Assembly (NCBI RefSeq): GCF_030813495.1
Contig: NZ_JAUSUI010000011.1
Span: forward strand, 1-64,000
Direction: 5' to 3'
DNA: 64,000 nt
From: Ancylobacter polymorphus
GTDB lineage: Bacteria > Pseudomonadota > Alphaproteobacteria > Rhizobiales > Xanthobacteraceae
Both the position numbers and the translations under genes were made by a program. Positions 51,899 to 63,858 of this stretch are shown here, piece after piece. The notes under the pieces were generated by a model that saw nothing but the letters and a program-made list of their open reading frames with translations, was not told where the DNA came from and made no database searches. Positions within the stretch are counted from its first letter, which is position 1. Each line of letters opens with the position of its first letter.

Positions 51899-53719
51899 TC
51901 ACCGTCCTGCGGTCGCCCGCTGCGCCTCAAGGGAGGCCAGGCTCGTCGTGGGGAACACCTCTTCCGGTATGGCGCACAGGCCGGTTCGGCCCAGCCATCG
52001 GCCGAGCGCCGGCTCGGCGGTGAGCACGGCGAAGGGCACGGCGACGAGCAGGGCGACGAGCACCGGCAGCGCCCAGGGCAGCGCGCCCGGCGCGAAGCCG
52101 GCGAGCAGCCCGGCGAGCGCCGCACCGAACAGGAATTGCGGCCACAGCCCGGCAAGCGCGGTGCGCCAGGACAGGCGCTCGGCATCGCGCGCCTGCGCCT
52201 CCCAGGTCACGGTGCGGCCGAAGGCGAGGCCGATCATGAACAGCGCGATGCGGAAGGCCACGACCGGCCCCAGCAGCACGGAAAAGACGAACTCCGCCAG
52301 CGCGCCCCCGGCCAGCCGGGCGCCGCCGCCATAGCGCGCGCGCTCGCCCGCCCGCAGCAGCACGTCGAGCAGACCCGCGACCTTCGGCGCGAGGCTCATC
52401 GCGAACATGGTGGCGAACAGGGTGAGCCCCAGCGCGGCGGGAAAGGGCGCGTCCGCCCGCTCCGTGTCGAAAACCTTCAGCGCGGCGAGGGCGACGAAGG
52501 CCATCCAGGCGAAGGCGCCGAGATACATCAGGATCGCCCAGGCGATCTGGAACCGGCTCATCGGCCTGAGGCCGGGCAGAGCCAGCAGGCGCCAATACTG
52601 CATGTTGCCCTGGCACCAGCGCAGATCACGCCGGGTGAATTCGGTGAGGTGCGGCGGGTTTTCCTCGAAACTGTCCATCTCCTCCGGCAGCACCCGCACC
52701 TCATAGCCGGCGCGGCGCATCAGCACCGCCTCGATCTGGTCGTGCGAGAGCATATGGCCGGCAAGCGGACCCTTGCCCGGCAGGACGGGGAGCTGGCAAT
52801 GCGCCTTGAACGGGGCGATGCGGATGACGGCGTTGTGCCCCCAATAGGGTCCGCAGTCGCCCGCCCACCAGGACGCTCCCATGGTGTAGGACCGCATGCC
52901 ATGGCGCATGCCGAACTGGAAGATGCGGGCGAAGGGCGAGCGGGAGGGCAGGCCGACCACCAGACTTTGCAGGATGCCGAGGCGCGGATGCGCCTGCATG
53001 ATGCGCACGAGGCGCAGCGTGGCACTGGCGCCGAGGAAGCTGTCGGCATCGAGCACCAGCATGAAATCATGCGCGTCGCCCCAGCGCTCCAGGAAATCGC
53101 GGATATTGCCGGCCTTGAAGCCTTCATTGCTGGTGCGGCGGCGGTAGTGAAGCGAGGTGCCTGCGCCGCGTTCCGCCTGCCAGGCGGCGAACAGGTCCTC
53201 CTCCTGCGCCGCGATCTCCGGCCGGGTGGTGTCCGACAACACGAACCAGGCAAAGGCGTCGCCCGCACCGCTGGCGGCGAGTTCGCCCTCCATGGCACGC
53301 AGCCGGGCGAAAGCCCGGGCGGGGTCCTCGTTGCGCAGCGTCATCACCATGGCGACGCGGGCGGTGATCGGCGCCTCCTCCGCCGCCCGCGTGGCATAGG
53401 GATAGACCGAGCGGCGGGCGTCGCCGGGCCCGTGCAGGAGCCATAGACCGATAAGGGCGTTCCAGAAGCCGAGAATGGTCCAGGGCGTGGAGAGGCAGAA
53501 GGCCGCCAGCAGCAACCCGTCCAGCAGGGTGAACCCGCCATGGGCGAGGAGATGGGCGAACAGCGCCACGAGGGCGGCATAGGTCGCTGCGATGAGGGTG
53601 AAGACGACCACGCGGCGCTGCGTGAGCTGCCGGGCGGACTGCACGCCGGTGGGCGTGCGGCGCTCGGCGCGACCGGCGGAAATGAAGCGTCCTTCGGCGA
53701 GATTCTCGTCCAGACTCAT
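51899..53719 (-). CDS. opgH: Glucans biosynthesis glucosyltransferase (MdoH/OpgH)
   Basis: 606-residue inner-membrane family 2 glycosyltransferase that builds osmoregulated periplasmic glucan chains from UDP-glucose. It has N- and C-terminal membrane helices, a central GT-A domain with MLVLDADSFLGASATLRLVR and the processive motif TRRDLRWCQGN. Start 53719 has GAGGA upstream. The usual periplasmic partner OpgG is absent here, so it may be encoded elsewhere, or this homologue may act in another glucan system. Confidence 0.93.
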   Translation of the reverse strand: MSLDENLAEGRFISAGRAERRTPTGVQSARQLTQRRVVVFTLIAATYAALVALFAHLLAHGGFTLLDGLLLAAFCLSTPWTILGFWNALIGLWLLHGPGDARRSVYPYATRAAEEAPITARVAMVMTLRNEDPARAFARLRAMEGELAASGAGDAFAWFVLSDTTRPEIAAQEEDLFAAWQAERGAGTSLHYRRRTSNEGFKAGNIRDFLERWGDAHDFMLVLDADSFLGASATLRLVRIMQAHPRLGILQSLVVGLPSRSPFARIFQFGMRHGMRSYTMGASWWAGDCGPYWGHNAVIRIAPFKAHCQLPVLPGKGPLAGHMLSHDQIEAVLMRRAGYEVRVLPEEMDSFEENPPHLTEFTRRDLRWCQGNMQYWRLLALPGLRPMSRFQIAWAILMYLGAFAWMAFVALAALKVFDTERADAPFPAALGLTLFATMFAMSLAPKVAGLLDVLLRAGERARYGGGARLAGGALAEFVFSVLLGPVVAFRIALFMIGLAFGRTVTWEAQARDAERLSWRTALAGLWPQFLFGAALAGLLAGFAPGALPWALPVLVALLVAVPFAVLTAEPALGRWLGRTGLCAIPEEVFPTTSLASLEAQRATAGR

Positions 53720-53867
53720 GCGATCCTCGGCTCGGCGCGGGCGCGCGGCCACCATGGCCGCACCCGGGGCTTGTACGCGCCCCGTCGTGGGCGGTTCACG
53801 CGCATGTGGGATCTAACCGCACCGTGATGCTGTTATGCACGCGAATAAGGGCAGGGGGTGACGGTTG

Positions 53868-54851
53868 ATGGGCGGTACGGCGGAGATCGGCACACAGCTC
53901 TGGTGCGTGGCGCCGGGGCGCTACGAGCTGCGCCGCGCCACGCTGCCCCCGTCGGGCGATGACGGGCTCCTCATTCGCAGCCTCGTCTCGGCGGTGAGCC
54001 GGGGGACGGAGCGGCTGGTGCTGGAAGGTGCGGTGCCGCCAAGCGAGCATGAGCGCATGCGCGGCCCGTTCCAGAACGGGGATTTCCCGTTTCCGGTGCA
54101 CTATGGCTATCAGAGCGTCGGCGTGGTCGAGGCCGGACCGGCGGAATGGGTCGGCCGCACGGTCTTCGCGCTCTTTCCCCATCAGGACCGCTATCGCCTG
54201 CCCGTGGCGGCGGCGATGCCGGTGCCGGAGAGCCTGCCGCCGGAGCGCGCCGCTCTCGCCGCGAATATGGAAACGGCGCTCAACGCGATCTGGGATTCCG
54301 GCACCGGCCCCGGCGACCGGATCACCATTGTCGGCGGCGGGGTGGTCGGCCTGCTGCTGACCGCGCTCGCCGCCCGGCTTCCCGGCGCGGAGGTAACGCT
54401 GGTGGATGTGAACCCGGCCCGGACCGCGCTGGCGCGCGCGCTCGGCGCCGCCTTCGCCCAGCCCGACGCCGTGACCGACGATGCCGATGTCGTGTTCCAT
54501 ACCAGCGCCACCGCCAGCGGCCTCGCCACCGCGCTGGCGGCAGCCGCGTTCGAGGCGAAGGTGGTGGAGGTGAGCTGGCATGGCGGCCACGCCCCCGCCG
54601 TGCCGCTGGGCGAGGCTTTCCACAGCCGGCGCCTGCAACTGATCGGCTCGCAGGTGGGTTCCGTATCTCCATCACGGCGCCCACGCTGGCCGCATGCGCG
54701 CCGGCTGGCCAAGGCGCTCGCCTTGCTCGACGATGCGCGGCTCGACCATCTGGTCACGCATGTCGTCGCTTTCGAAACGGCGCCGCAACGGCTGCCGCCA
54801 CTTCTGACCGGGGGCGAGGACGCGCTGGCGATCCTGCTCGATTACCGATGA
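53868..54851 (+). CDS. MDR-family dehydrogenase lacking usual zinc ligands
   Basis: 327-residue medium-chain dehydrogenase/reductase with the nucleotide site ITIVGGGVVGLLLTALAA. The catalytic zinc region that normally reads SGICGTD appears as VSAVSRGTERLVLEG, and the GHE region reads HYGYQSVGVV, so the standard cysteine and histidine ligands are missing, as in BchC-like and related zinc-free members. It heads an overlapping operon with a PTPS-like protein, a glycosyltransferase and a methyltransferase. Start ATG 53868 is used (a TTG directly before it is in frame). Substrate unknown; probably a pterin- or sugar-type alcohol. Confidence 0.82.
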   Translation: MGGTAEIGTQLWCVAPGRYELRRATLPPSGDDGLLIRSLVSAVSRGTERLVLEGAVPPSEHERMRGPFQNGDFPFPVHYGYQSVGVVEAGPAEWVGRTVFALFPHQDRYRLPVAAAMPVPESLPPERAALAANMETALNAIWDSGTGPGDRITIVGGGVVGLLLTALAARLPGAEVTLVDVNPARTALARALGAAFAQPDAVTDDADVVFHTSATASGLATALAAAAFEAKVVEVSWHGGHAPAVPLGEAFHSRRLQLIGSQVGSVSPSRRPRWPHARRLAKALALLDDARLDHLVTHVVAFETAPQRLPPLLTGGEDALAILLDYR

Positions 54852-54859
54852 GGGATGCC

Positions 54860-55261
54860 ATGTACTCTGTCGAAGTCCGCGATCGCATCATGATCGCCCA
54901 TTCGCTGCCCGACCCGTTCTTCGGCCCGGCCCAGGGCCTGCACGGCGCGACCTTCGTGGTCGATGTCGCCTTTTTCCGCGAGACGCTGACGGCGCAGAAT
55001 GTCGTGGTCGACATCGGCGCTGCGCTCGACGTGCTGAAGAAGACGCTGGCGCCGCTCGCCTACCAGAATCTCGACACGCTGCCGCAGTTCGCCGGCACGC
55101 TGACCACCACGGAATTCCTCGCCCGGTATATTTTCGACGCGATCGCCGCCGCTGCGAAGGCCGGCGCGCTGGGCGAGGACGGGCAGGGGCTGACCAAGAT
55201 CCGCGTCACCCTGCACGAGACCGACCTTGCGCGCGCCAGCTTCGAATCCGGCCTTGGCTGA
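54860..55261 (+). CDS. 6-pyruvoyl-tetrahydropterin synthase-like protein, catalytic residues altered
   Basis: 133-residue PTPS/QueD-fold protein. The T-fold pattern is plain: MIAHSLPDPFFGPAQGLHGA, then VVVDIGAALDVLKKTLAPL and YQNLDTLPQFAGTLTTTEFLA. The HxH zinc motif reads HGA, the catalytic cysteine region (before LHG) has no cysteine, and the LDHKNL motif is replaced by AYQNLD. The active-site zinc chemistry is therefore probably lost or changed. Start 54860 has AGGGA just upstream; 54848 (ATGA overlap) is the alternative. It sits between the dehydrogenase and the glycosyltransferase. Confidence 0.8.
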   Translation: MYSVEVRDRIMIAHSLPDPFFGPAQGLHGATFVVDVAFFRETLTAQNVVVDIGAALDVLKKTLAPLAYQNLDTLPQFAGTLTTTEFLARYIFDAIAAAAKAGALGEDGQGLTKIRVTLHETDLARASFESGLG

Positions 55262-55270
55262 GGCGCGGGC

Positions 55271-56317
55271 GTGAACGACTTCGCCTTTGCCATACCCGGC
55301 GACCTCGAGCTGCCGACCGGTGGCTATGCCTATGACCGCCGGGTGATCGCCGAAGCGCCCGGCGCCGGGGGCATGCTGACCCATGTCGCGCTGCCCGGGG
55401 GCTTTCCCTTTCCCTCGCCGGCGGAACTGGAGACCAGCGCCGCGCGGCTGCGCGCCTTGCCGCCGGGCCAGCCCGTGCTGATCGACGGGCTCGCGCTCGG
55501 TGCCCTGCCGGCATCGCTCTTGCGCGGGCTTGGACGGCCGCTGGCGGCGCTGGTGCATCATCCGCTGGCGCGGGAAGCCGGGCTGAGCGAGGACCAGCGC
55601 GCGCGGCTTTGCGCCAGCGAAAAGGCGGCGCTGGCGGAGGCCGCGGCGGTGATCACCACCAGCCACGCCACCGCGCGCGACCTGATGCGCGATTACGGCG
55701 TGCCGGAAAGCCGGCTCCGCATTGCCCTGCCCGGCACGGACCCCGCCCCGCGCGCCACCGGCACGGGCCGGCCGCTGCGGCTGCTCGCCGTCGGCTCGGT
55801 GATCCCGCGCAAGGCGCATGGCCTGCTGGTGGAGGCGCTGGCAGACCTGAGCGCGCAGGACTGGCAGTGCCATATCGTCGGCGCCACCGACCGCGATCCC
55901 GCCGAGGCCGAACGGGTCGCGGCGCTCATCGCGACCCATGGGCTCGGCGCCCGTGTCCGGCTGACCGGCGCGCTGTCGGCCGGGGCGCTGGCCGGCGAAT
56001 TCGATGCCGCCGACCTGTTCGTCACCGCCTCGCTGTTCGAGGGCTATGGCATGGGGCTGACCGAGGCGCTGGCGCGCGGCCTGCCCATCCTTGCCACCCG
56101 CGCCGGCGCCATTCCCGATACCGTGCCGGCGGAGGCCGCGCTGCTGGCCGAACCCGGCGATGCGACGAGCTTGCGCGACGCGCTGCATGTTCTGCTCGCG
56201 GATGCCCCCCGGCGCCGGCGGCTCGCCGACGCGGCGTGGCGTCACGCCCAAACCCTGCCCAGCTGGACCGAGACCGCCGCGGCGCTGCTTGCCGCCCTGA
56301 AGGAGATGCCCCGATGA
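55271..56317 (+). CDS. Family 4 glycosyltransferase
   Basis: 348-residue GT-B glycosyltransferase of the GT4 type. The donor-binding region includes LLAVGSVIPRKAHGLLVEAL and the C-terminal LFEGYGMGLTEALARGLPILATRAGAI with its EX7E-type glutamates. No signal peptide or membrane helix, so cytosolic. Start is GTG at 55271, 9 bp after the PTPS-like gene, and it overlaps the methyltransferase by 4 bp. With pterin-type neighbours it may glycosylate a small pterin or pyrimidine, as pteridine glycosyltransferases do, rather than a surface polymer. Confidence 0.85.
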   Translation: MNDFAFAIPGDLELPTGGYAYDRRVIAEAPGAGGMLTHVALPGGFPFPSPAELETSAARLRALPPGQPVLIDGLALGALPASLLRGLGRPLAALVHHPLAREAGLSEDQRARLCASEKAALAEAAAVITTSHATARDLMRDYGVPESRLRIALPGTDPAPRATGTGRPLRLLAVGSVIPRKAHGLLVEALADLSAQDWQCHIVGATDRDPAEAERVAALIATHGLGARVRLTGALSAGALAGEFDAADLFVTASLFEGYGMGLTEALARGLPILATRAGAIPDTVPAEAALLAEPGDATSLRDALHVLLADAPRRRRLADAAWRHAQTLPSWTETAAALLAALKEMPR

Positions 56318-57150
56318 GCGGCTTCGCTGCCGACTGGCTCGCTCTGCGCGAACCGGTGGACCACGCCTCCCGCAACCCCACGCTCGCCGCGCGGGTGCGG
56401 GCGCATTTCGGCGGGCGTGACGCGCTCACCATTGTCGATCTCGGCTGCGGCACCGGCTCAAACCTGCGCGGCCTCGCCGCCGACCTGCCGCCGCGCCAGC
56501 ACTGGCACCTGATCGACGGCGACGCGGCGCTGCTGCGGCGGGCACGCGAAAGCCTTGCCGATTGGGCCGAGGCGTCCCACGAGGATGGCGAGCGGCTGCG
56601 GCTGCGGCGCGACGGGCGGGAGATCGTGGTGAGCTTCGAACGCGCCGACCTTACCCGCCGCGACCTTGATTTCACCGCCCTCGGTGCGGAGCTGGTGACG
56701 GCCGCCGCGCTGCTCGATCTCGTGTCGGAAAGCTGGCTGGAGCGCCTCGTCGCGGCGCTGGCCGTGGCCAAGCTGCCGCTCTATGCCGTGCTGAACTATG
56801 ATGGCGAGGCGGAATGGCAGCCCGCCGACCCGCTGGACGGGCGCGTGATCGCCGCCTTCAACCGCCACCAGCGCGGCGACAAGGGGTTCGGGCCGGCGCT
56901 TGGGCCAGCCTCAAGCGAAGCTTTGGCGCAGCTGCTGCGCCAGCACGGCTACCGCTATGGCTCGCTGCCCAGCCCGTGGGTGCTCGGTCCCACCGAGGCC
57001 GACCTCATCGGCGCGCTGACCGACGGCTTCGCCCAGGCGGCGGGAGAGATCGAGCCTGAGCGACAGGCCGCCTTCGCCGCCTGGGCGAAGGTGCAGGCGG
57101 GGGCGCACATGGTGCGGATCGGCCATCGCGACGTGTTCGGCCATTTCTGA
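56314..57150 (+). CDS. Class I SAM-dependent methyltransferase
   Basis: 278-residue methyltransferase with the SAM motif I LTIVDLGCGTGSNLRGLA, an acidic motif II region LIDGDAALL, and a long C-terminal part (LYAVLNYDGEAEWQP and FNRHQRGDKGFGPALGP). The latter resembles a group of small-molecule methyltransferases rather than RNA enzymes. It overlaps the glycosyltransferase stop (ATGA). As last gene of the dehydrogenase-PTPS-GT-MT operon it may methylate the pathway product. Confidence 0.85.
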   Translation: MSGFAADWLALREPVDHASRNPTLAARVRAHFGGRDALTIVDLGCGTGSNLRGLAADLPPRQHWHLIDGDAALLRRARESLADWAEASHEDGERLRLRRDGREIVVSFERADLTRRDLDFTALGAELVTAAALLDLVSESWLERLVAALAVAKLPLYAVLNYDGEAEWQPADPLDGRVIAAFNRHQRGDKGFGPALGPASSEALAQLLRQHGYRYGSLPSPWVLGPTEADLIGALTDGFAQAAGEIEPERQAAFAAWAKVQAGAHMVRIGHRDVFGHF

Positions 57151-57164
57151 CCGCAGCGCACCGC

Positions 57165-57734
57165 TCAGAAAGGCGGCCACATCCGCGCCATCACCCCGTC
57201 GCGCTTGAGAAAGCGGTGGTAGAGCGCCGCGGCGATATGGGCCAGCGCCAGCAGGCCGAGAAGCTGCGCCAGCAGCCCGTGCAGGCCGAGAATCCGCTTG
57301 GCCAGCGCCTCATTGGGCGCCAGCAGCGCCGGCAGGTCGAACAGGCCGAACACGTTCAGCGCCGGATAGGCCGAGACCCCGGCCCAGCCGAGCAGCGGCA
57401 CGACGAGCAGCAGCAGATAGAGCGCGGCATGCACGGCGGCAGAGGCGATCCGCTCGAACGGGGTCAGCGGCACCACCCGTGCCGGCTCCCCACGACGCAG
57501 CCGCACCAGCACACGCAGCACCACCAGCCACAGCACGAGGAAGCCGACAAATTTGTGCAGGCTGTAGAGCGAGCCGGTCAGCGCATCGAAGCCGGTCGCT
57601 TCCCCGCGCGCCACCATATAGAGCCCGAGCGGGATGAGGCCGATCACCAGAAGGCCGATCACCCAGTGCAGGGCGCGGGCGGTGGGGCCGTAGCGAAAGC
57701 GCGCCTCAGGCAGGTTCCGATCCGAAGCCGACAT
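57165..57734 (-). CDS. Cytochrome b561 family protein
   Basis: 189-residue four-helix b-type cytochrome. Family pattern: ARALHWVIGLLVIGLIPLG (haem His), LHKFVGFLVLWLVVLRVLVR, LLGWAGVSAYP and LLALAHIAAALYHRFLKRDGVMARM near the end, with the usual histidine pairs. It moves electrons between quinol and an acceptor such as superoxide. It overlaps the RibD-type gene by 29 bp on the same strand, hence co-translated, an odd pairing of a membrane cytochrome with a soluble pyrimidine reductase. Confidence 0.92.
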   Translation of the reverse strand: MSASDRNLPEARFRYGPTARALHWVIGLLVIGLIPLGLYMVARGEATGFDALTGSLYSLHKFVGFLVLWLVVLRVLVRLRRGEPARVVPLTPFERIASAAVHAALYLLLLVVPLLGWAGVSAYPALNVFGLFDLPALLAPNEALAKRILGLHGLLAQLLGLLALAHIAAALYHRFLKRDGVMARMWPPF

Positions 57735-58458
57735 ACGTCCCTCCCTCGCCGGTTCCGCGCAGGTCACAGTCGCAGAGAATATTGCCGTCGTCGAGAAGAT
57801 AGGTATCGACGCGCGGGCGCAGCGCCCCTTCCAGCCCGTCGATGGGCCGCAATGCGAGGCCCGGCCGGCCGGAGCCGAGAATGATCGGCGCCACGCACAC
57901 ATGCAGCCGGTCGACCAGCCCGGCATCGATGAAGCGCGAGACGGTGGAGGCGCCGCCCTCGACCAGAATGGTGCGATGGCCGCGCGCCGCCAGAGCGGCA
58001 ACGAGCTTAGCCGGCTCGAAGATGTCGGGCTCGTCCGGCGGGCCGATGCGCTCGACCGCCTCCGGCCAGCCGGCTTCATTATGGGTGAACACGATTCTGT
58101 GACAGCCGTCCGCGTCGAGCCATTTGGCGTCGCGCGGCGAGCGGCCGCTGCGGTCGATCACCGCCCGCGCCGGGCTGCGGCCGGGGACGCGGCGGGTGGT
58201 CAGGCGGGGGTTGTCGGCTACCACCGTGCCGACGCCGACCACCACCACATCGACAAGGGCGCGCAGGCGGTGGAGATGGTCAAGGCCGCTCAGACCGTTG
58301 ATATCGCGCGACTTTCCCGTCGGCGTCGCGATCCGCCCGTCCAGAGACTGGCCGAGCTGGGCGATGACATAGGGCGTGGCGCGGGGCCGCAGCAGCGGTT
58401 CGTAAAGCCCCGCCAGCGGGTCAATCGGTGTTTCACGGCGATTCACGCAAAGCCCCAC
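57706..58458 (-). CDS. RibD C-terminal reductase-domain protein (pyrimidine reductase)
   Basis: 250-residue RibD_C / dihydrofolate-reductase-fold protein. Motifs YVIAQLGQSLDGRIATPTG, DVVVVGVGTVVADNPRLTTR, VIDRSGRSP and ILVEGGASTVSRFIDAGL belong to 5-amino-6-ribosylamino-uracil reductases. The deaminase domain of full RibD is absent. It starts at GTG 58458 (a second GTG lies 12 nt inside), divergent from a GTP cyclohydrolase II. The pair could make a ribityl- or ribosyl-amino pyrimidine separate from the main riboflavin route. Confidence 0.87.
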   Translation of the reverse strand: MGLCVNRRETPIDPLAGLYEPLLRPRATPYVIAQLGQSLDGRIATPTGKSRDINGLSGLDHLHRLRALVDVVVVGVGTVVADNPRLTTRRVPGRSPARAVIDRSGRSPRDAKWLDADGCHRIVFTHNEAGWPEAVERIGPPDEPDIFEPAKLVAALAARGHRTILVEGGASTVSRFIDAGLVDRLHVCVAPIILGSGRPGLALRPIDGLEGALRPRVDTYLLDDGNILCDCDLRGTGEGGTYVGFGSEPA

Positions 58459-58528
58459 GGTCTGTGCATCTCGATCCTCTGAACGATCAAGGGCCGCCGG
58501 CGTTGCTGGTCCGTTGGCGCCCTATATC

Positions 58529-58541
58529 CGTAGCTACTACG
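58529..58541. promoter_or_regulatory. Short palindrome between the RibD-type and RibA genes
   Basis: CGTAG-CTA-CTACG (58529-58541) is a perfect inverted repeat in the 120-bp divergent gap. It is a candidate shared operator. No FMN riboswitch features are visible in the gap. Confidence 0.4.
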
Positions 58542-58578
58542 TCCAAGACACGGAAATGGTGCAGCGGGAGAGATTTCA

Positions 58579-59748
58579 ATGAGCAGCAGCGCGACGACCG
58601 CCGGCACGATTGCGAGCCTCTTCGGCGACGCCACCCTGACAGAGGCGGAGCGCGCCATCGCCGAGATGCGCGCCGGGCGGCCCGTCATCCTCGCCGAAGG
58701 CGGTCGGCTCTTCCTGGCGGCGAGCGCGGAATTCGCCGATGCGGAGCGGCTCGCGGCGCTGGACGGGCTCGTCGGCGGCGCGCTGCAATTGGTGCTCACC
58801 CCCGCCCGGTTGCGGGCGCTCGGCCGGCCGGAGGAAGCGCGCCCCATGGCCCTGCCGGTCTCGCAACTGGGGAGCGCGCGGGTGCGGGCCTTGAGCGCGC
58901 AGGACCTGGCCGGCGCCAAGGGCGAGGGCGCGAAAGGCGAGACGCTCGGCGCCGAGCTGGTCGAGGCGCACGCGGCCGGCGCGGCGGCGCTGCATCTTGC
59001 CACCCTCGCTCTGATGCTGCCGGCCGTGCTCGTCGGGCCCCTTGCGCCAGCGGCACTCACCCTGCCGGCGCTGACCGTGCGCGCCGAGGCGATCACGCGC
59101 TATGGCGAGGACCGCGCGACGCGGGTGGAGATCGTCTCCCGCGCCCCGGTGCCGCTGCTCACCGCGCGCAATTGCGAATTCGTGGTGTTCCGCGGCGGCG
59201 AGGGCATGCGCGAGCAGGTGGCGGTGGTGGTCGGCACGCCGGACCCGGCGCGGCCCGTGCTGGTGCGGCTGCATTCCGCCTGCCTCACCGGCGACCTGTT
59301 CGGCTCGCTGCGCTGCGACTGCGGCGACCAGCTGCGCACCACGGTCGCCACCATGGCGCAGGCGGGCGGCGGCGTGCTGCTCTATCTCGATCAGGAAGGA
59401 CGCGGCAACGGCATCGCCAACAAGATGCGCGCCTATCGCCTGCAGAGCGACGGGCTCGACACGTATGAGGCGGACGAGACGCTCGGCTTCGGCCTCGACG
59501 CGCGCCGGTTCGACTTCGCCGCCGCCATGCTGCGCCAGCTCGGCTTTGAGCACGTGGTGCTGATGACCAACAACCCCGAAAAGATCGCGGCGCTGAGCCG
59601 GGCGGGATTGCAGGTCTCGGGCGTCGAGCGGCTCTATGGCCGGCGCGGTGCCGACAATATCCGCTACCTCGCCGCCAAGCGCGACCGCGCCGGCCATTTC
59701 CTCGATCTCGAAGCGCTCGACCATCACGCCCCTGCCTCCTGCGGCTGA
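58579..59748 (+). CDS. ribA: GTP cyclohydrolase II with a degenerate RibB-like N-terminal domain
   Basis: 389-residue protein. The C-terminal half is GTP cyclohydrolase II: zinc site RLHSACLTGDLFGSLRCDCGDQL (three cysteines), DQEGRGNGIANKMRAYRLQ and TNNPEKIAALSRAGLQV. The N-terminal half looks like a 3,4-dihydroxybutanone phosphate synthase fold without its acidic catalytic residues. The chain opens GTP to the formamidopyrimidine start of riboflavin- or deazaflavin-type pathways. Start 58579 has GGGAG upstream. A tandem-hairpin terminator follows. Confidence 0.9.
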   Translation: MSSSATTAGTIASLFGDATLTEAERAIAEMRAGRPVILAEGGRLFLAASAEFADAERLAALDGLVGGALQLVLTPARLRALGRPEEARPMALPVSQLGSARVRALSAQDLAGAKGEGAKGETLGAELVEAHAAGAAALHLATLALMLPAVLVGPLAPAALTLPALTVRAEAITRYGEDRATRVEIVSRAPVPLLTARNCEFVVFRGGEGMREQVAVVVGTPDPARPVLVRLHSACLTGDLFGSLRCDCGDQLRTTVATMAQAGGGVLLYLDQEGRGNGIANKMRAYRLQSDGLDTYEADETLGFGLDARRFDFAAAMLRQLGFEHVVLMTNNPEKIAALSRAGLQVSGVERLYGRRGADNIRYLAAKRDRAGHFLDLEALDHHAPASCG

Positions 59749-59882: not shown

Positions 59883-59911
59883 CTTTGAACGAGAGGCGTA
59901 GGCTTCTGTTC

Positions 59912-60613
59912 ATGACCTCTTCCGCCGCCCATGATGTCAGCTTCCTGCGCCTCACCTCGCTGCCCATGCTGCTGGAGCGCGAGATCGAGAGCATGATCCT
60001 CGACGGGCGGCTGAGCGAGGGCGGGCGGATCAACGAGAACCAGCTCGCCGCCACCTTCGGCGTCAGCCGCGGCCCGGTGCGCGAGGCGCTGCGTTCGCTG
60101 GAAGCGCTGGGGCTGGTGGAACTGCTGCCCAATCGCGGCGTGTTCATCCGCAGCCTCGATATCGCGCAGGTGGTGGAGATGTATGGCGTGCGCGCCGCCC
60201 TGTTCGGCTATGCCGCGCAGCTTCTCGCCACCCGCGCCGAGCCGGACGTGATCGCCCGGCTGCGCGCCCTGCTCGACGAGATGGGCGAGGCCGCGCAGGC
60301 ACATGATTTCGACCGCTACTACCCGCTGAACTTCGCCTTCCACGATTTCATCGTCGAGCGCGCCGGCAATGGCGTGCTCACCGCGCAGTATCGTGGGCTG
60401 GTGAAGCAGCTTCGGCTCTACCGCGCCGGCAATCTGATGACCGGCAACACGCTGGAGCTTTCCAACGAGGAACATGCCCGCATCGTCGCGGCCATAGAGG
60501 GCCGGGACGCGGCGAGCGCCTACCAGACGAGCTTCGACCATGTCGAGCGCGGCAAGGAGCGGCTTCTCGCCCGCTCCGCGTCGGCCGGCCGGGCCGAGGA
60601 ACAAAGCGCCTGA
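59912..60613 (+). CDS. GntR-family transcriptional regulator (FadR/FCD type)
   Basis: 233-residue GntR regulator with an N-terminal winged helix (GGRINENQLAATFGVSRGPVREALRSLEALGLVEL) and a C-terminal FCD effector domain containing FHDFIVERAGNG and the EHARIVAAIEGRD histidine that binds a metal. It probably senses a carboxylate and controls the tctCBA operon downstream, which starts 151 bp later. ATG 59912 is preferred; a TTG further upstream is open. Operator-like palindrome immediately upstream. Confidence 0.93.
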   Translation: MTSSAAHDVSFLRLTSLPMLLEREIESMILDGRLSEGGRINENQLAATFGVSRGPVREALRSLEALGLVELLPNRGVFIRSLDIAQVVEMYGVRAALFGYAAQLLATRAEPDVIARLRALLDEMGEAAQAHDFDRYYPLNFAFHDFIVERAGNGVLTAQYRGLVKQLRLYRAGNLMTGNTLELSNEEHARIVAAIEGRDAASAYQTSFDHVERGKERLLARSASAGRAEEQSA

Positions 60614-60763
60614 CCTGAAGCGTTCAAGGAGAGGCGCCCGGCCAAGGGCGCCCGAAGCCCGGCGATGCACGCCCGCGCCAAGGGGCGCGTGCCGCCGCAA
60701 CCGTCACATCATCATCGGGAGATCGCCCGGCAGAGGCGGCCCCGCACTCCTGGGAGGAAATCC

Positions 60764-61723
60764 ATGCGCAAGACCCTGACCGGCTTTCTGAGCGCCGTGC
60801 TGGCCGTGGGGCTCGGCACGCTCAGCCTCAAGGCCGAGCCCCTCGCCTATCCGCACAAGGTCGTCACCCTCGTCACCCATTCCAGCCCCGGCGGCGGCAG
60901 CGACGTGTTCCTGCGTGAATTGTCGAAATATCTCGGCAAATATATCGGCGCCACCTTCATCGTTGAGAATGTGCAGGGCGGCAGCGGCGCCAAGGCGGTG
61001 GCGCGTGTCGCCGCCGCCCCGGCCGATGGCAGCGTGTTCTACGCCACCACGCCGACCTATATCTACACCTCGCTGCTCTCCAAGCCCTCCGCCACCTATA
61101 AGGATCTGGAGCCGCTGGTGAATCTGTTCGCCGACAGCGAGGTGATCTACACCCGCGCCGACGGCCCGTTCAACACGCTGCAGGACGTGATCGACAAGGC
61201 CAAGAAAGAGCGCGGCCGCTGGGGCGCCGCCAACCCGGCCTCGCTGGAGCGCCAGGCCGCCGAACAGCTCAAGCGCGCCGCCGGCGTCAACGCCGCCATC
61301 GTCACCCATGAGGGCGGCGGCGACATGATGCTCAACGTGATGAACGGCACGCTCGACATCGGCATCGGCGAAATCCAGGAACTGCGCTCCCAGCTCGCCG
61401 CCGGCAAAATCCGCCTGCTCGCCACCTTCAATCCCGAGCGCATCCCCGAAAAGCCCGAAGTTCCCACTGTCAAGGAAAGCGGCTTCAACGTCTCGCTGGT
61501 GAAGTTCCGCGGCCTCGCCGGTCCCAAGGGCCTGCCGGACAACGTCACCAAGGTGTGGGACGAGGCGATCAAGAATGTGCTCGCCGACCCCGAGTACAAG
61601 GCGCGCTACACCGAAGAGGTGCTGGTGCCGAACTACATCCCGCACGCGCAGTACCAGGCCTTCATCACCAATTTCGCCGACACGACCGAGGCGTTCCTGA
61701 AGGAAACCGGCGCGGTGAAATAA
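60764..61723 (+). CDS. tctC: Tripartite tricarboxylate transporter substrate-binding protein (TctC/Bug)
   Basis: 319-residue periplasmic Bug-family receptor with a signal peptide (MRKTLTGFLSAVLAVGLGTLS). SSPGGGSDVFLREL is the family ligand-binding N-terminus, followed by VVENVQGGSGAKAV-type and LDIGIGEIQELRS stretches, and FRGLAGPKGLPDNV in the second lobe. GGGAGGAA precedes the ATG 60764. It delivers a carboxylate to TctBA; ligand not determinable. First gene of the transporter operon. Confidence 0.93.
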   Translation: MRKTLTGFLSAVLAVGLGTLSLKAEPLAYPHKVVTLVTHSSPGGGSDVFLRELSKYLGKYIGATFIVENVQGGSGAKAVARVAAAPADGSVFYATTPTYIYTSLLSKPSATYKDLEPLVNLFADSEVIYTRADGPFNTLQDVIDKAKKERGRWGAANPASLERQAAEQLKRAAGVNAAIVTHEGGGDMMLNVMNGTLDIGIGEIQELRSQLAAGKIRLLATFNPERIPEKPEVPTVKESGFNVSLVKFRGLAGPKGLPDNVTKVWDEAIKNVLADPEYKARYTEEVLVPNYIPHAQYQAFITNFADTTEAFLKETGAVK

Positions 61724-61876
61724 CCGCCGAGGCGACGCCGGCCGCCCTGCGGCGCCGGCGAAGCCCCGGCGCCGTGACCGGGACGCCGCGCGCAGGCGTC
61801 GCCCCTTGCCGCAACGCCCGCCCCGCACGCCTGCGCGGGCCGGCGCCGTGCCCCCTCCGCCCCCGAGGAACGCACC

Positions 61877-62365
61877 ATGAAACGGGATTTCCTGAGCGGC
61901 GGCGTGCTCATCGCCCTCGCCGCCGCCTATTACATCGCCACCGGCACCATTGCCGAGAGCACGCTGTCGGACGAGATCGGCGCCACCGGCCTGCCCCGGC
62001 TGCTGGCTATGCTGCTCGCCTTCATCGGGCTGGCGCTGATCGCCCGCACGGCCTTCGTCGCCCTCGCCGCCCGCCGCGCCAATGTCCCGCAGATCCCGGC
62101 CGAGGAAGAGGAAGGCGCGCCGCTGCCGCGCGCCGTCGGCCTGCTGCTGATCGGCGGCGCCTATGTGCTGCTGCTGCCGTTCCTCGGCTATTTCCTTTCC
62201 GTGGCCCTGCTGATCGGAGCGGTGGCCTTCTATGAGGGCGCCGCCCGCAGCTGGGTGCTGCCGACCGCCGCGCTGGGCGGGGCGACGCTTTACTGGGCGA
62301 TCTTCGTCAAGCTGCTCGGCGTGCACCAGCCCGCCGGCTCCCTCTTTCAGGGTTGGCTGTCGTGA
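61877..62365 (+). CDS. tctB: Tripartite tricarboxylate transporter small membrane subunit (TctB)
   Basis: 162-residue small membrane subunit with four hydrophobic helices, starting MKRDFLSGGVLIALAAAYYIATGTIAES. The family region GATGLPRLLAMLLAFIGLALI and GYFLSVALLIGAVAFYEGA are present. It lies 153 bp after tctC, a gap filled by GC-rich sequence, and overlaps tctA by 4 bp. It partners TctA in the membrane. Confidence 0.93.
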   Translation: MKRDFLSGGVLIALAAAYYIATGTIAESTLSDEIGATGLPRLLAMLLAFIGLALIARTAFVALAARRANVPQIPAEEEEGAPLPRAVGLLLIGGAYVLLLPFLGYFLSVALLIGAVAFYEGAARSWVLPTAALGGATLYWAIFVKLLGVHQPAGSLFQGWLS

Positions 62366-63858
62366 CGACCTTCTGGGACATTCTGCATCTTCTCACCGCC
62401 ACGCCGCTGGTGCCGGTCGCCATTCTCGGCCTGACCTGGGGCATTCTCGGCGGCGCGCTGCCGGGCATTTCCGCCTCGATCACCATGGCGCTGGTGCTGC
62501 CCTTCACCTACACGATGGACCCGGCGATGGCGATCGCGCTGCTCGCCTGCGTCTATATCGGCGCGGAATATGGCGGCTCGATCCCCGCCATCCTGATCCG
62601 CACCCCCGGCACCAATTCCTCCGCCGCCACCGTCATCGACGGCTATGAGCTGAACCGCCAGGGGCGGGCCGGCGAGGCGCTGGGCATTTCGCTGATGTCG
62701 GGCGTGGTGGGCAGCCTGTTCGGCCTCGCCATGCTGGCGCTGCTGACCGAGCCGCTGTCCTGGCTGGCGCTGGCCTTCAAGCCGACCTCCTATTTCGCCC
62801 TCGGCATTCTCGGCCTCAGCGTCATCGCCTCGATGGGCGGGGATTCGCTGCTCAAGGGCCTCGCCTCGGCGGTGGTCGGGCTGATGATCGCCACGGTCGG
62901 CACCGACCCGATCTCCGGCGTCACCCGCTTCACCTTCGATGTGGCGGACCTGCTCAGCGGCGTCGAACCCGTGGTGGTCATGGTCGGCCTGTTCGCGCTC
63001 ACCGAATTGATGAGCCAGTCCGGCTCCACGTCAGTCACCCAGCTTGGCGGCTCGATCCGCATCCGCCTGCCGGGCTGGGCGATGATGCGCAAGCTGCGCC
63101 GCTCGCAGGCGATCGGCTGCTTTCTCGGCCTGTTCGAGGGGTTGACCCCCGGCGGGGGCGGCTCGGTCGCCGCCTTCATGTCCTACAATGAGGCGCGGCG
63201 CTGGTCGAAGACCCCGGAGCAGTTCGGCAAGGGCTCGGAAGAGGGCATCGCCGCGCCCGAGGCGGCCAACAACACGGTCGCCTCCACCGCGCTGATCCCG
63301 CTGCTGAGCTTCGGCATCCCCAGCTCCAACTCCACCGCCGTGCTGCTCGGGGGCCTGCTGATGCACGGGCTGCTGCCAGGCCCGCGCCTGTTCGAGCAGA
63401 ACCCGCAGGTGATCGACAGTCTCTATGTCGGCTCGCTCATCGCCATCATCGCCCAGATCGGCGTCGGCGTGCTCATCCTGCCGGCCTGCATCTGGCTGGT
63501 GAATCGGCCGCGCCCCTACCGCGCCGGCTTCATCCTCGCGCTCATCCTTTCCGGCCTGTTCACCCTCAACAACAGCCCGTTCGATCTCGGCCTCGCTTTG
63601 GCGCTTGGGCTGATGGGCTATCTGATGCGGCTGGCCCGCTTCCCGGTGCTGCCGATGATTCTCGGCGTGGTGCTCGGCCATATGGTGGAATCGAGCTATC
63701 GCCGCTCGCTCGTGCTCTCCGGCGGCGACTTCCACATCTTCATCGAGGACCCGATCGCCGTCGGCCTGCTCGGCGCCGCCTTGTTCTTCATCGTCTTCTC
63801 CCTGGCGCGCGAATACCGCGACGCACGCCGGACCCAGCTGCAGGAAACCCATTCGTGA
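62362..63858 (+). CDS. tctA: Tripartite tricarboxylate transporter large permease (TctA)
   Basis: 498-residue, roughly 12-helix permease. Signatures include the duplicated glycine-rich repeats GILGGALPGISASITMAL and GLTPGGGGSVAAFMSYNEA, and EEGIAAPEAANNTVAS. It starts at GTG 62362, overlapping tctB (GTGA), and its stop overlaps the MmgE/PrpD start. Sodium- or proton-driven uptake of the carboxylate captured by TctC. Confidence 0.95.
   Translation: MTTFWDILHLLTATPLVPVAILGLTWGILGGALPGISASITMALVLPFTYTMDPAMAIALLACVYIGAEYGGSIPAILIRTPGTNSSAATVIDGYELNRQGRAGEALGISLMSGVVGSLFGLAMLALLTEPLSWLALAFKPTSYFALGILGLSVIASMGGDSLLKGLASAVVGLMIATVGTDPISGVTRFTFDVADLLSGVEPVVVMVGLFALTELMSQSGSTSVTQLGGSIRIRLPGWAMMRKLRRSQAIGCFLGLFEGLTPGGGGSVAAFMSYNEARRWSKTPEQFGKGSEEGIAAPEAANNTVASTALIPLLSFGIPSSNSTAVLLGGLLMHGLLPGPRLFEQNPQVIDSLYVGSLIAIIAQIGVGVLILPACIWLVNRPRPYRAGFILALILSGLFTLNNSPFDLGLALALGLMGYLMRLARFPVLPMILGVVLGHMVESSYRRSLVLSGGDFHIFIEDPIAVGLLGAALFFIVFSLAREYRDARRTQLQETHS

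Follow-up and report, generated by a model that had tools for sequence, protein, structure and literature searches.

The stretch of DNA analysed here, hereafter the window, comprises 64,000 nucleotides of contig NZ_JAUSUI010000011.1 of Ancylobacter polymorphus (assembly GCF_030813495.1) and contains a gene cluster organized around a core of four genes, encoding a medium-chain dehydrogenase/reductase (MDR), a protein resembling the 6-pyruvoyl-tetrahydropterin synthases (PTPS-like protein), a family 4 glycosyltransferase (GT4) and a methyltransferase (MT). A pyrimidine reductase made of the RibD_C domain alone, a GTP cyclohydrolase II (RibA), a cytochrome b561 and a divergent MdoH-like membrane glycosyltransferase accompany this core. 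With a confidence that lies slightly above even, we read the cluster as a dedicated biosynthetic locus composed of two modules. The cytosolic one would make a glycoside of a GTP-derived pyrimidine or pterin, and the other, interchangeable between lineages and placed in the membrane, would conjugate or export this product. A previous interpretation of the same DNA, made from its letters and open reading frames (the sequence-only reading), had proposed a GTP-derived small molecule that is glycosylated and methylated; the co-occurrence of the genes and the dedicated RibD_C lineage described below speak for that proposal, whereas the compound itself is something we still infer.

Co-occurrence of the cluster genes in bacteria

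The core of four genes is conserved over the Alpha-, Beta- and Gammaproteobacteria and the Actinomycetota. A strong homologue of the PTPS-like protein occurs in 59 of 121 genomes, that of A. polymorphus included, with a 60th match (G045) that is weak, and in 24 of 29 congeners; a profile search recovered the gene from 26 of 398 Pseudomonadota genomes drawn evenly, again including its own. At least 594 relatives were counted in a larger genome collection, of which the best 80 were used, a sample that leans to close relatives and comprises Ancylobacter, Bosea, Rhizobium, Azospirillum, Paracoccus, Palleronia, Polynucleobacter, Alcaligenaceae and one Xanthomonas, while plasmid records add Streptomyces, Microbacterium, Arthrobacter, Methylosinus, Agrobacterium and Thiodictyon. 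Altogether, 146 loci consist of 58 loci found by whole-protein similarity, 80 (L097-L176) from the genome collection and 8 of 22 plasmid matches. The sets of 58 and 80 loci share some genomes, and the removal of PTPS-like proteins at least 95% identical brought the 146 loci down to 126 non-redundant ones. Neighbouring genes were scored by directed tblastn, open-ended clustering of open reading frames (ORFs) being swamped by antisense ORFs; one pair of loci has masked bases inside the RibD_C gene.

Among the 58 neighbourhoods, tblastn detected MDR in 57, GT4 in 58, MT in 57, RibD_C in 50 and RibA in 32, a few of these matches being fragments. Over the 126 non-redundant loci, the PTPS-like gene has MDR (117), GT4 (120), MT (116), RibD_C (85), b561 (69), RibA (57) and MdoH-like (88) genes in its vicinity, and stricter limits of length and score, retaining near full-length frames, hardly modify these counts (116, 118, 116, 85, 69, 56 and 85, respectively). 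In 100 long loci, RibD_C is near in 72 and RibA in 49, for a chance expectation of about 1.7% and 1.3%, calculated for a 20-kb stretch from the copy numbers in the window genome. The 126 loci are related and not independent, which makes nominal P values too small. Nevertheless, a chance grouping is rejected by a co-occurrence in genomes and loci that far exceeds expectation, and becomes untenable in view of the spread of RibD_C-bearing loci over several classes. The gene-neighbourhood search suggested by the sequence-only reading thus finds the genes together across the Hyphomicrobiales and well beyond.

Enzymes of the proposed cytosolic module

The RibD_C protein of the cluster possesses an intact sequence of 250 amino acids that matches PF01872 only and is devoid of any deaminase domain, so that it differs from the bifunctional RibD enzymes and agrees with its initial description as a reductase-only gene product. 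A separate bifunctional RibD is encoded in the genome. In a tree built from chosen rows by a quick method, with no bootstrap, 40 cluster RibD_C proteins and 14 housekeeping RibD of the order occupy opposite sides of a branch with a support of 100% (Shimodaira-Hasegawa-like approximate likelihood ratio test, SH-aLRT); the cluster rows belong mostly to Pseudomonadota, with one Actinomycetota plasmid and one metagenome-assembled genome labelled Fidelibacterota, and the 100-base region L207 was left out of the comparison. The separate bifunctional RibD and this branch of its own lead us to reject the identification of the cluster RibD_C as an ordinary riboflavin copy. Its best match in the PDB, 6p8c, is a diamino-ribosylamino-pyrimidinone 5'-phosphate reductase, which acts on the un-deaminated substrate, and the NCBIfam models TIGR01508 (101 bits) and TIGR00326 (98 bits) score nearly equally, both below cut-off.

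The RibA protein retains the three zinc cysteines and the catalytic tyrosine, and its GTP cyclohydrolase II part superposes well on E. coli RibA (Z 23.9, root-mean-square deviation (rmsd) 1.6, 173 aligned residues), so that by residues and predicted fold it appears to be a classical GTP cyclohydrolase II. It scores 418 bits with PRK08815, under the cut-off of 464, and a UTP cyclohydrolase (7eev) is among its fold relatives. The N-terminal residues 17-182 adopt a RibB fold in the predicted model (Z about 14, VIA-align) and give no match to the Pfam model of the dihydroxybutanone phosphate (DHBP) synthases (PF00926, E 0.001). The domain hence deserves the name of degenerate RibB that it had been given, and RibA does not qualify as a bifunctional RibBA.

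Three genes with a GTP cyclohydrolase II domain occur in the genome. The other two, located at C2:517392-517835 and C2:638550-638975 (L186, L187), consist of a RibBA copy that has lost its zinc cysteines and of a copy of the PRK07198 type (732 bits), which could correspond to the unknown cyclohydrolase BrbG postulated in PMC9478397, or to a UTP cyclohydrolase. The cluster RibA is accordingly alone in this genome in being a classical GTP cyclohydrolase II whose zinc site is intact, and it could also feed riboflavin synthesis here. The nine congeners in which RibA lies next to the cluster possess three copies each, and, among the other twenty, nineteen possess two and one possesses one, which designates the cluster RibA as an addition; the congeners deprived of it keep other copies, and it seems not to be needed for riboflavin in them. 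The possibility that the second RibA and RibD were the organism's only riboflavin enzymes, which the sequence-only reading had named as fatal to its proposal, is therefore dismissed for RibD_C, a dedicated extra copy, but not for RibA, the only intact classical copy of the genome.

That RibA and RibD_C ensure an auxiliary supply of riboflavin, e.g., for secreted flavins, next to genes of unrelated function, is nonetheless very improbable. Besides the singularity of the intact RibA, this explanation may invoke Sinorhizobium meliloti, in which, according to PMC9478397, a ribBA deletion lowers flavin secretion without causing auxotrophy, separate modules for internal and secreted flavins being hypothesised. 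It is opposed by a RibD_C lacking a deaminase domain and standing apart from the housekeeping RibD, and by the congeners that keep other cyclohydrolase copies where the cluster RibA is missing, and it leaves the PTPS-like, GT4 and MT genes unexplained.

A second form of the cluster occurs in Streptomyces. In Streptomyces fungicidicus (L089), the genes succeed one another in the order CDP-alcohol phosphatidyltransferase, MDR, PTPS-like, GT4, MT, flippase-like protein, creatininase-family protein and GTP cyclohydrolase II, and the same set is found whole in Streptomyces globisporus (L192), with the addition of a RibD_C gene between the flippase-like and creatininase genes. The GTP cyclohydrolase II of both clusters shows a methionine where the window RibA has its catalytic tyrosine; at this position, every other alignable cluster RibA has a tyrosine, except that of L137, which has a leucine. 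The printed stretch of SCO6650 from Streptomyces coelicolor and the PTPS-like protein of L089 share 91.6% identity, and the gene spacing of the S. fungicidicus cluster, judged from locus-tag numbers, would fit the interval from SCO6650 to SCO6655, which we take to be a GTP cyclohydrolase II variant of this kind that stops at the formylated intermediate. In S. meliloti, the creatininase-family protein BrbF deformylates 2-amino-5-formylamino-6-ribosylamino-4(3H)-pyrimidinone 5'-phosphate (AFRPP) to the same pyrimidine (PMC9478397). Two enzyme sets situated near the same core, either a methionine-type cyclohydrolase with a creatininase or a tyrosine-type RibA, would thus deliver the same pyrimidine. 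Of the indirect evidence for a core acting on the product of GTP cyclohydrolase II, this recurrence of GTP opening in a second form is the best. Genes of the creatininase family lie near 8 of the 126 non-redundant loci, and none was found in the window cluster.

These data also bear on the view that the locus makes a cell-envelope glycan or glycolipid without any GTP-derived heterocycle, with RibA and RibD_C as passengers. Two glycosyltransferases with membrane partners, and a RibA that is near only 57 of the 126 loci, would suit such a locus. It appears improbable all the same, owing to the frequency of RibD_C and RibA around the long loci, far over expectation, to the dedicated RibD_C lineage, and to the two Streptomyces clusters, where a PTPS-like protein is again associated with a GTP cyclohydrolase II and a creatininase-family gene.

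The PTPS-like protein has lost the zinc motif of its family. HGH is absent from all 146 proteins, and HGA is present in all of them; because L097-L176 were found with peptide patterns including HGAT or MIAHS, the motif conservation is biased in that subset, and the unbiased 58 loci give the same result (HGH 0/58, HGA 58/58). The motifs CxxxHG and CxxxxxHG occur in none of the 146 proteins, and ExxHG in 6. By the residue roles of rat PTPS, in an alignment that spans query residues 29-105 only, we take the T85-E86 pair to be the ring-binding Thr-Glu and E121 the distal Glu, all three retained, and presume that the third zinc histidine, the catalytic cysteine and the Asp-His pair are lost. The closest solved relative by sequence is SCO6650 (PDB 3d7j, E 2e-37, 131 bits), which shares the HGA motif and bears the title of uncharacterized protein in its PDB record. 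The description as an altered PTPS-like protein is consequently accurate. In COG0720, the signatures are CxxxHGH for PTPS-I (QueD), CxxxxxHGH for PTPS-II (biopterin) and ExxHGH for PTPS-III (folate), none of which the protein displays, and the function of PTPS-V is described as unclear (PMC5041015).

Annotated plasmid records label the protein a 6-carboxytetrahydropterin synthase. An ordinary QueD, folate or biopterin enzyme would agree with this label, with the lack of any other PF01242 protein in the genome and with the presence of one match to the QueC family (31.6 bits for a Pfam cut-off of 22). This match, which lies in a frame of 651 aa, is confined to positions 4-61 out of 210, as compared with 180-237 bits for the full-length QueC matches of about 50 relatives, and such a weak, partial match makes a queuosine role unlikely; FolB and FolE are encoded elsewhere in the genome. 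The annotation as a queuosine enzyme is thus not supported by the sequence, and we reject the QueD, folate and biopterin roles, which the missing motifs render hardly credible. A second context of this zinc-less family consists of PTPS-like paralogues (L190, L191, L096) that lie outside the cluster, near genes for cupin, MBL-fold and BTAD regulator proteins.

The three remaining core enzymes are less distinctive. PF00107 is the only MDR-type match of the dehydrogenase, for which two nucleotide-binding-fold models also score, and no cysteine is conserved in at least 75% of its 132 homologues, a result that fits the former description as a zinc-free MDR. It reaches 40.7 bits with the BchC model TIGR01202, far from the cut-off of 291 and hence outside BchC, and a PDB sequence search returned generic dehydrogenases only. 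The GT4 enzyme is closest in the PDB to a D-inositol 3-phosphate glycosyltransferase (7qsg, E 5.7e-23), a likeness compatible with a polyol-phosphate acceptor. The predicted model of the methyltransferase, with a mean predicted local distance difference test (pLDDT) score of 97.5, best matches 3mgg (Z 19.3, rmsd 3.3, 235 aligned residues), and a PDB sequence search with MT gave no match at E 0.1.

The proposed membrane module

The seven genes retained by the sequence-only reading did not include the divergent MdoH-like glycosyltransferase, which belongs to the set; that reading had also overlooked the alternative lipid and flippase genes of other lineages and the Streptomyces relatives SCO6650 and, presumably, SCO6655. 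The window MdoH-like protein shares 44-50% identity with seven betaproteobacterial cluster copies and 32-37% with ten OpgG-linked OpgH proteins, among which the OpgG-linked OpgH of its own genome, encoded elsewhere, stands at 35%; a separate comparison of these two copies gave 37%. A branch with 100% support separates 34 cluster MdoH-like copies from 10 OpgG-linked OpgH, in a tree of chosen rows obtained by a quick method, in which the tool flagged one long OpgH branch and from which three of 13 OpgH regions, without OpgH, were left out. Furthermore, among the 51 genomes that possess a cluster MdoH, 20 gave no OpgG match, and all but one of those are at least 93% complete, so that, as judged from linkage and co-occurrence, the cluster MdoH would not work with OpgG. 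An ordinary OpgH placed beside the cluster by accident is rejected on account of this branch of its own, of the OpgG-linked copy located elsewhere and of the genomes without OpgG match. In the Betaproteobacteria L144, L149, L151, L161, L163 and L171, the MT homologue stands beside the MdoH-like gene and not downstream of GT4.

Depending on the lineage, another set takes this place. A CDP-alcohol phosphatidyltransferase is near in 16 of the 126 loci, which belong to Rhizobiaceae, some Rhodobacterales, Actinomycetota and others, often with a flippase-like gene of the LPG-synthase-TM type (11/126) and a gene annotated as sulfatase (11/126), whose Agrobacterium member has no Pfam match. The MdoH-like gene and the CDP-alcohol phosphatidyltransferase are never found together (0/126), an exclusion observed in lineage-structured data, for which Fisher P values overstate the strength. 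A step of export, or one at the membrane, is suggested by the MdoH-like protein as well as by the alternative lipid and flippase genes. In 14 of the 126 loci, L102, L112, L117, L119, L120, L123, L127, L132, L140 and L141 among them, the cluster also has a membrane protein of the YfhO type in its vicinity (PF09586 in the case of L102), which represents a further hint of membrane glycosylation.

The same GTP-derived glycoside could, conversely, be soluble, e.g., a pigment, a sunscreen, a cofactor or a signal, with the MdoH-like or CDP-alcohol and flippase genes as neighbours devoted to another task. Two observations tell for such a product and against a membrane module: at 946.5 bits, the MdoH-like protein exceeds the cut-off of 884 set by NCBIfam for MdoH, and both MdoH and the CDP-alcohol enzyme are missing within range of 15 of the 100 long loci, L096 and L092, which also miss other core genes, being part of them. 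We regard a soluble product as unlikely, given an MdoH-like gene that accompanies loci of several classes, forms a cluster-specific branch, occurs in genomes devoid of OpgG match and never overlaps with the alternative set.

Locus organization, proposed pathway and known relatives

Gene calls and Pfam/NCBIfam scans recovered all seven genes of the sequence-only reading at the positions given there (Table 1). The MDR, PTPS-like, GT4 and MT genes follow each other with spacings of 5, 9 and -4 bp, and the b561 and RibD_C genes overlap by 29 bp, so that the expression overlapping operon was roughly right. The limits of 53868-59748 enclose the seven genes and are too tight, since they leave out the MdoH-like gene. 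When the regions between the MdoH-like and MDR genes were compared over 106 loci, none of the 8-mers recurred in more than 10 of them and an EcfG-type promoter motif was found in none; a PHROGs search gave nothing useful. Further along the window (59885-63858) lies the gene of a GntR/FCD regulator, after which the ORFs suggest a substrate-binding protein together with membrane proteins resembling a tripartite tricarboxylate transporter; the GntR homologue directly follows RibA in close congeners only and is probably unrelated to the cluster.

Table 1. Features of the cluster in the window.
Feature	Position	Strand	Remarks
MdoH/OpgH-like membrane GT2 glycosyltransferase, cluster-specific paralogue	51899..53755	-	Divergent, 109 bp from MDR; NCBIfam PRK05454.2-6, 946 bits
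Shared intergenic region between the MdoH-like gene and the operon	53756..53864	.	109 bp; probable divergent promoters
Zinc-free MDR, distantly BchC-like	53865 (or 53868)..54851	+	PF00107, 39.5 bits
PTPS-like T-fold protein without the zinc motif, related to SCO6650 (3d7j)	54857..55261	+	PF01242, 71 bits
GT4 glycosyltransferase	55271..56317	+	PF00534 and PF13439
Class I S-adenosylmethionine (SAM) methyltransferase, small-molecule type	56314..57150	+	PF13649
Cytochrome b561, frequent partner	57165..57734	-	PF01292
RibD_C-only pyrimidine reductase, cluster-specific lineage	57706..58458	-	PF01872, 146 bits
GTP cyclohydrolase II (PRK08815-like) with degenerate RibB-fold N-domain	58579..59748	+	PF00925, 174 bits

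The gene content and its conservation, the intact GTP cyclohydrolase II and RibD_C sequences, the lost zinc motif of the PTPS-like protein, the separate lineages of RibD_C and MdoH and the mutual exclusion of the membrane sets are observed. All substrates, the sequence in which the PTPS-like protein, MDR, GT4 and MT act, and the product with its fate at the membrane are inferred, and the route might run as follows. By the known activity of its family, RibA would open GTP to diamino-ribosylamino-pyrimidinone phosphate, and the RibD_C-only reductase would similarly convert the ribose into a ribityl chain; the 2-amino group should stay in place because no deaminase domain is present. The zinc-free MDR might then oxidise or reduce a position of the side chain, and the zinc-less PTPS-like T-fold protein might bind the ring and reshape or close it. 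Should the MDR introduce a keto group at the 2' position of the ribityl chain, one would expect ring closure by the 5-amino group to a dihydropterin, and a pterin would be reached without GTP cyclohydrolase I. Glycosylation would fall to GT4 and methylation to MT, and the membrane module would conjugate or export the product, by means of the MdoH-like GT2 enzyme here and, in other lineages, of the CDP-alcohol phosphatidyltransferase, often with flippase-like and sulfatase-like proteins.

Apart from the two points raised for a soluble product, several observations weigh against the reading as a two-module locus. Of the 126 loci, some of which lie on short contigs, 41 have no RibD_C detected in their vicinity and 69 no RibA. 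On three Streptomyces plasmids (L096, L190, L191), the PTPS-like gene stands without the rest of the cluster within 8-9 kb, the Arthrobacter plasmid locus L092 consists of MDR, PTPS-like and GT4 genes only, and some genomes, e.g., G060 and G091, carry the core with a single RibD_C gene in all, so that the GTP steps would be either shared with riboflavin synthesis there or not essential. The fold search with the methyltransferase retrieved generic class I matches only. In S. fungicidicus, L089 has no RibD_C in range, and the highest-scoring model for its creatininase-family protein is that of mycofactocin MftE (141 bits, cut-off 172), for 37 bits with the archaeal deformylase ArfB; moreover, complementation of the S. 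meliloti mutant was not achieved with distant homologues of BrbF (PMC9478397). Finally, creatininase-family genes are located near seven clusters outside Streptomyces (L066, L073, L075, L076, L086, L131 and L175). Their products are 29-35% identical to the Streptomyces protein, and the alignable RibA there is of the tyrosine type, so that these creatininases may act on something else.

A bolder version of the two-module reading, possible but on the doubtful side, would have hundreds of bacteria from at least two phyla use a zinc-less PTPS relative to build a pterin or pyrimidine ring from the product of GTP cyclohydrolase II and not from that of GTP cyclohydrolase I. Either membrane module would attach the glycosylated and methylated ring to a phospholipid or to a glycan of the periplasm, where it might serve, together with the cytochrome b561, in redox reactions at the membrane or in light absorption.

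Single pieces of this pathway were known before, e.g., the structure of SCO6650, and studies in S. coelicolor have reportedly dealt with variant GTP cyclohydrolase II enzymes and with the zinc-less SCO6650. The whole pathway was found nowhere in the open literature searched, and no description of the cluster or its product was recognised in open PMC articles, the subscription literature lying mostly outside that search. A function for the cluster would give a role to the orphan SCO6650 and would account for the supernumerary genes of GTP cyclohydrolase II and RibD_C; envelope molecules of a new class, bearing a pterin or a pyrimidine, could also come to light.

With respect to known systems, the cluster has in common with the riboflavin pathway the families of its first steps, GTP cyclohydrolase II and RibD_C reductase, but differs from it by the missing deaminase domain and the separate RibD_C lineage; no RibE or RibH was recognised among the ten window proteins scanned. 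The PTPS-like protein belongs to the same family as the PTPS-I, -II and -III enzymes of COG0720 and keeps the presumed ring-anchoring residues, but lacks their signature motifs. With OpgH, the synthase of osmoregulated periplasmic glucans, the MdoH-like protein shares a score above the NCBIfam cut-off and an identity of 32-37% to the OpgG-linked enzymes, whereas the cluster copies branch separately, are not located beside OpgG and occur in genomes without an OpgG match. BrbF of S. meliloti is of the same creatininase family as the cluster-linked genes, BrbF itself being a riboflavin enzyme. SCO6650 and SCO6655 of S. coelicolor are linked to the window by the homologous PTPS-like protein; compared with the S. 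fungicidicus cluster, to which they would correspond, the window has a tyrosine-type RibA with a RibB-fold N-domain, a cytochrome b561 and an MdoH-like protein, and dispenses with the creatininase.

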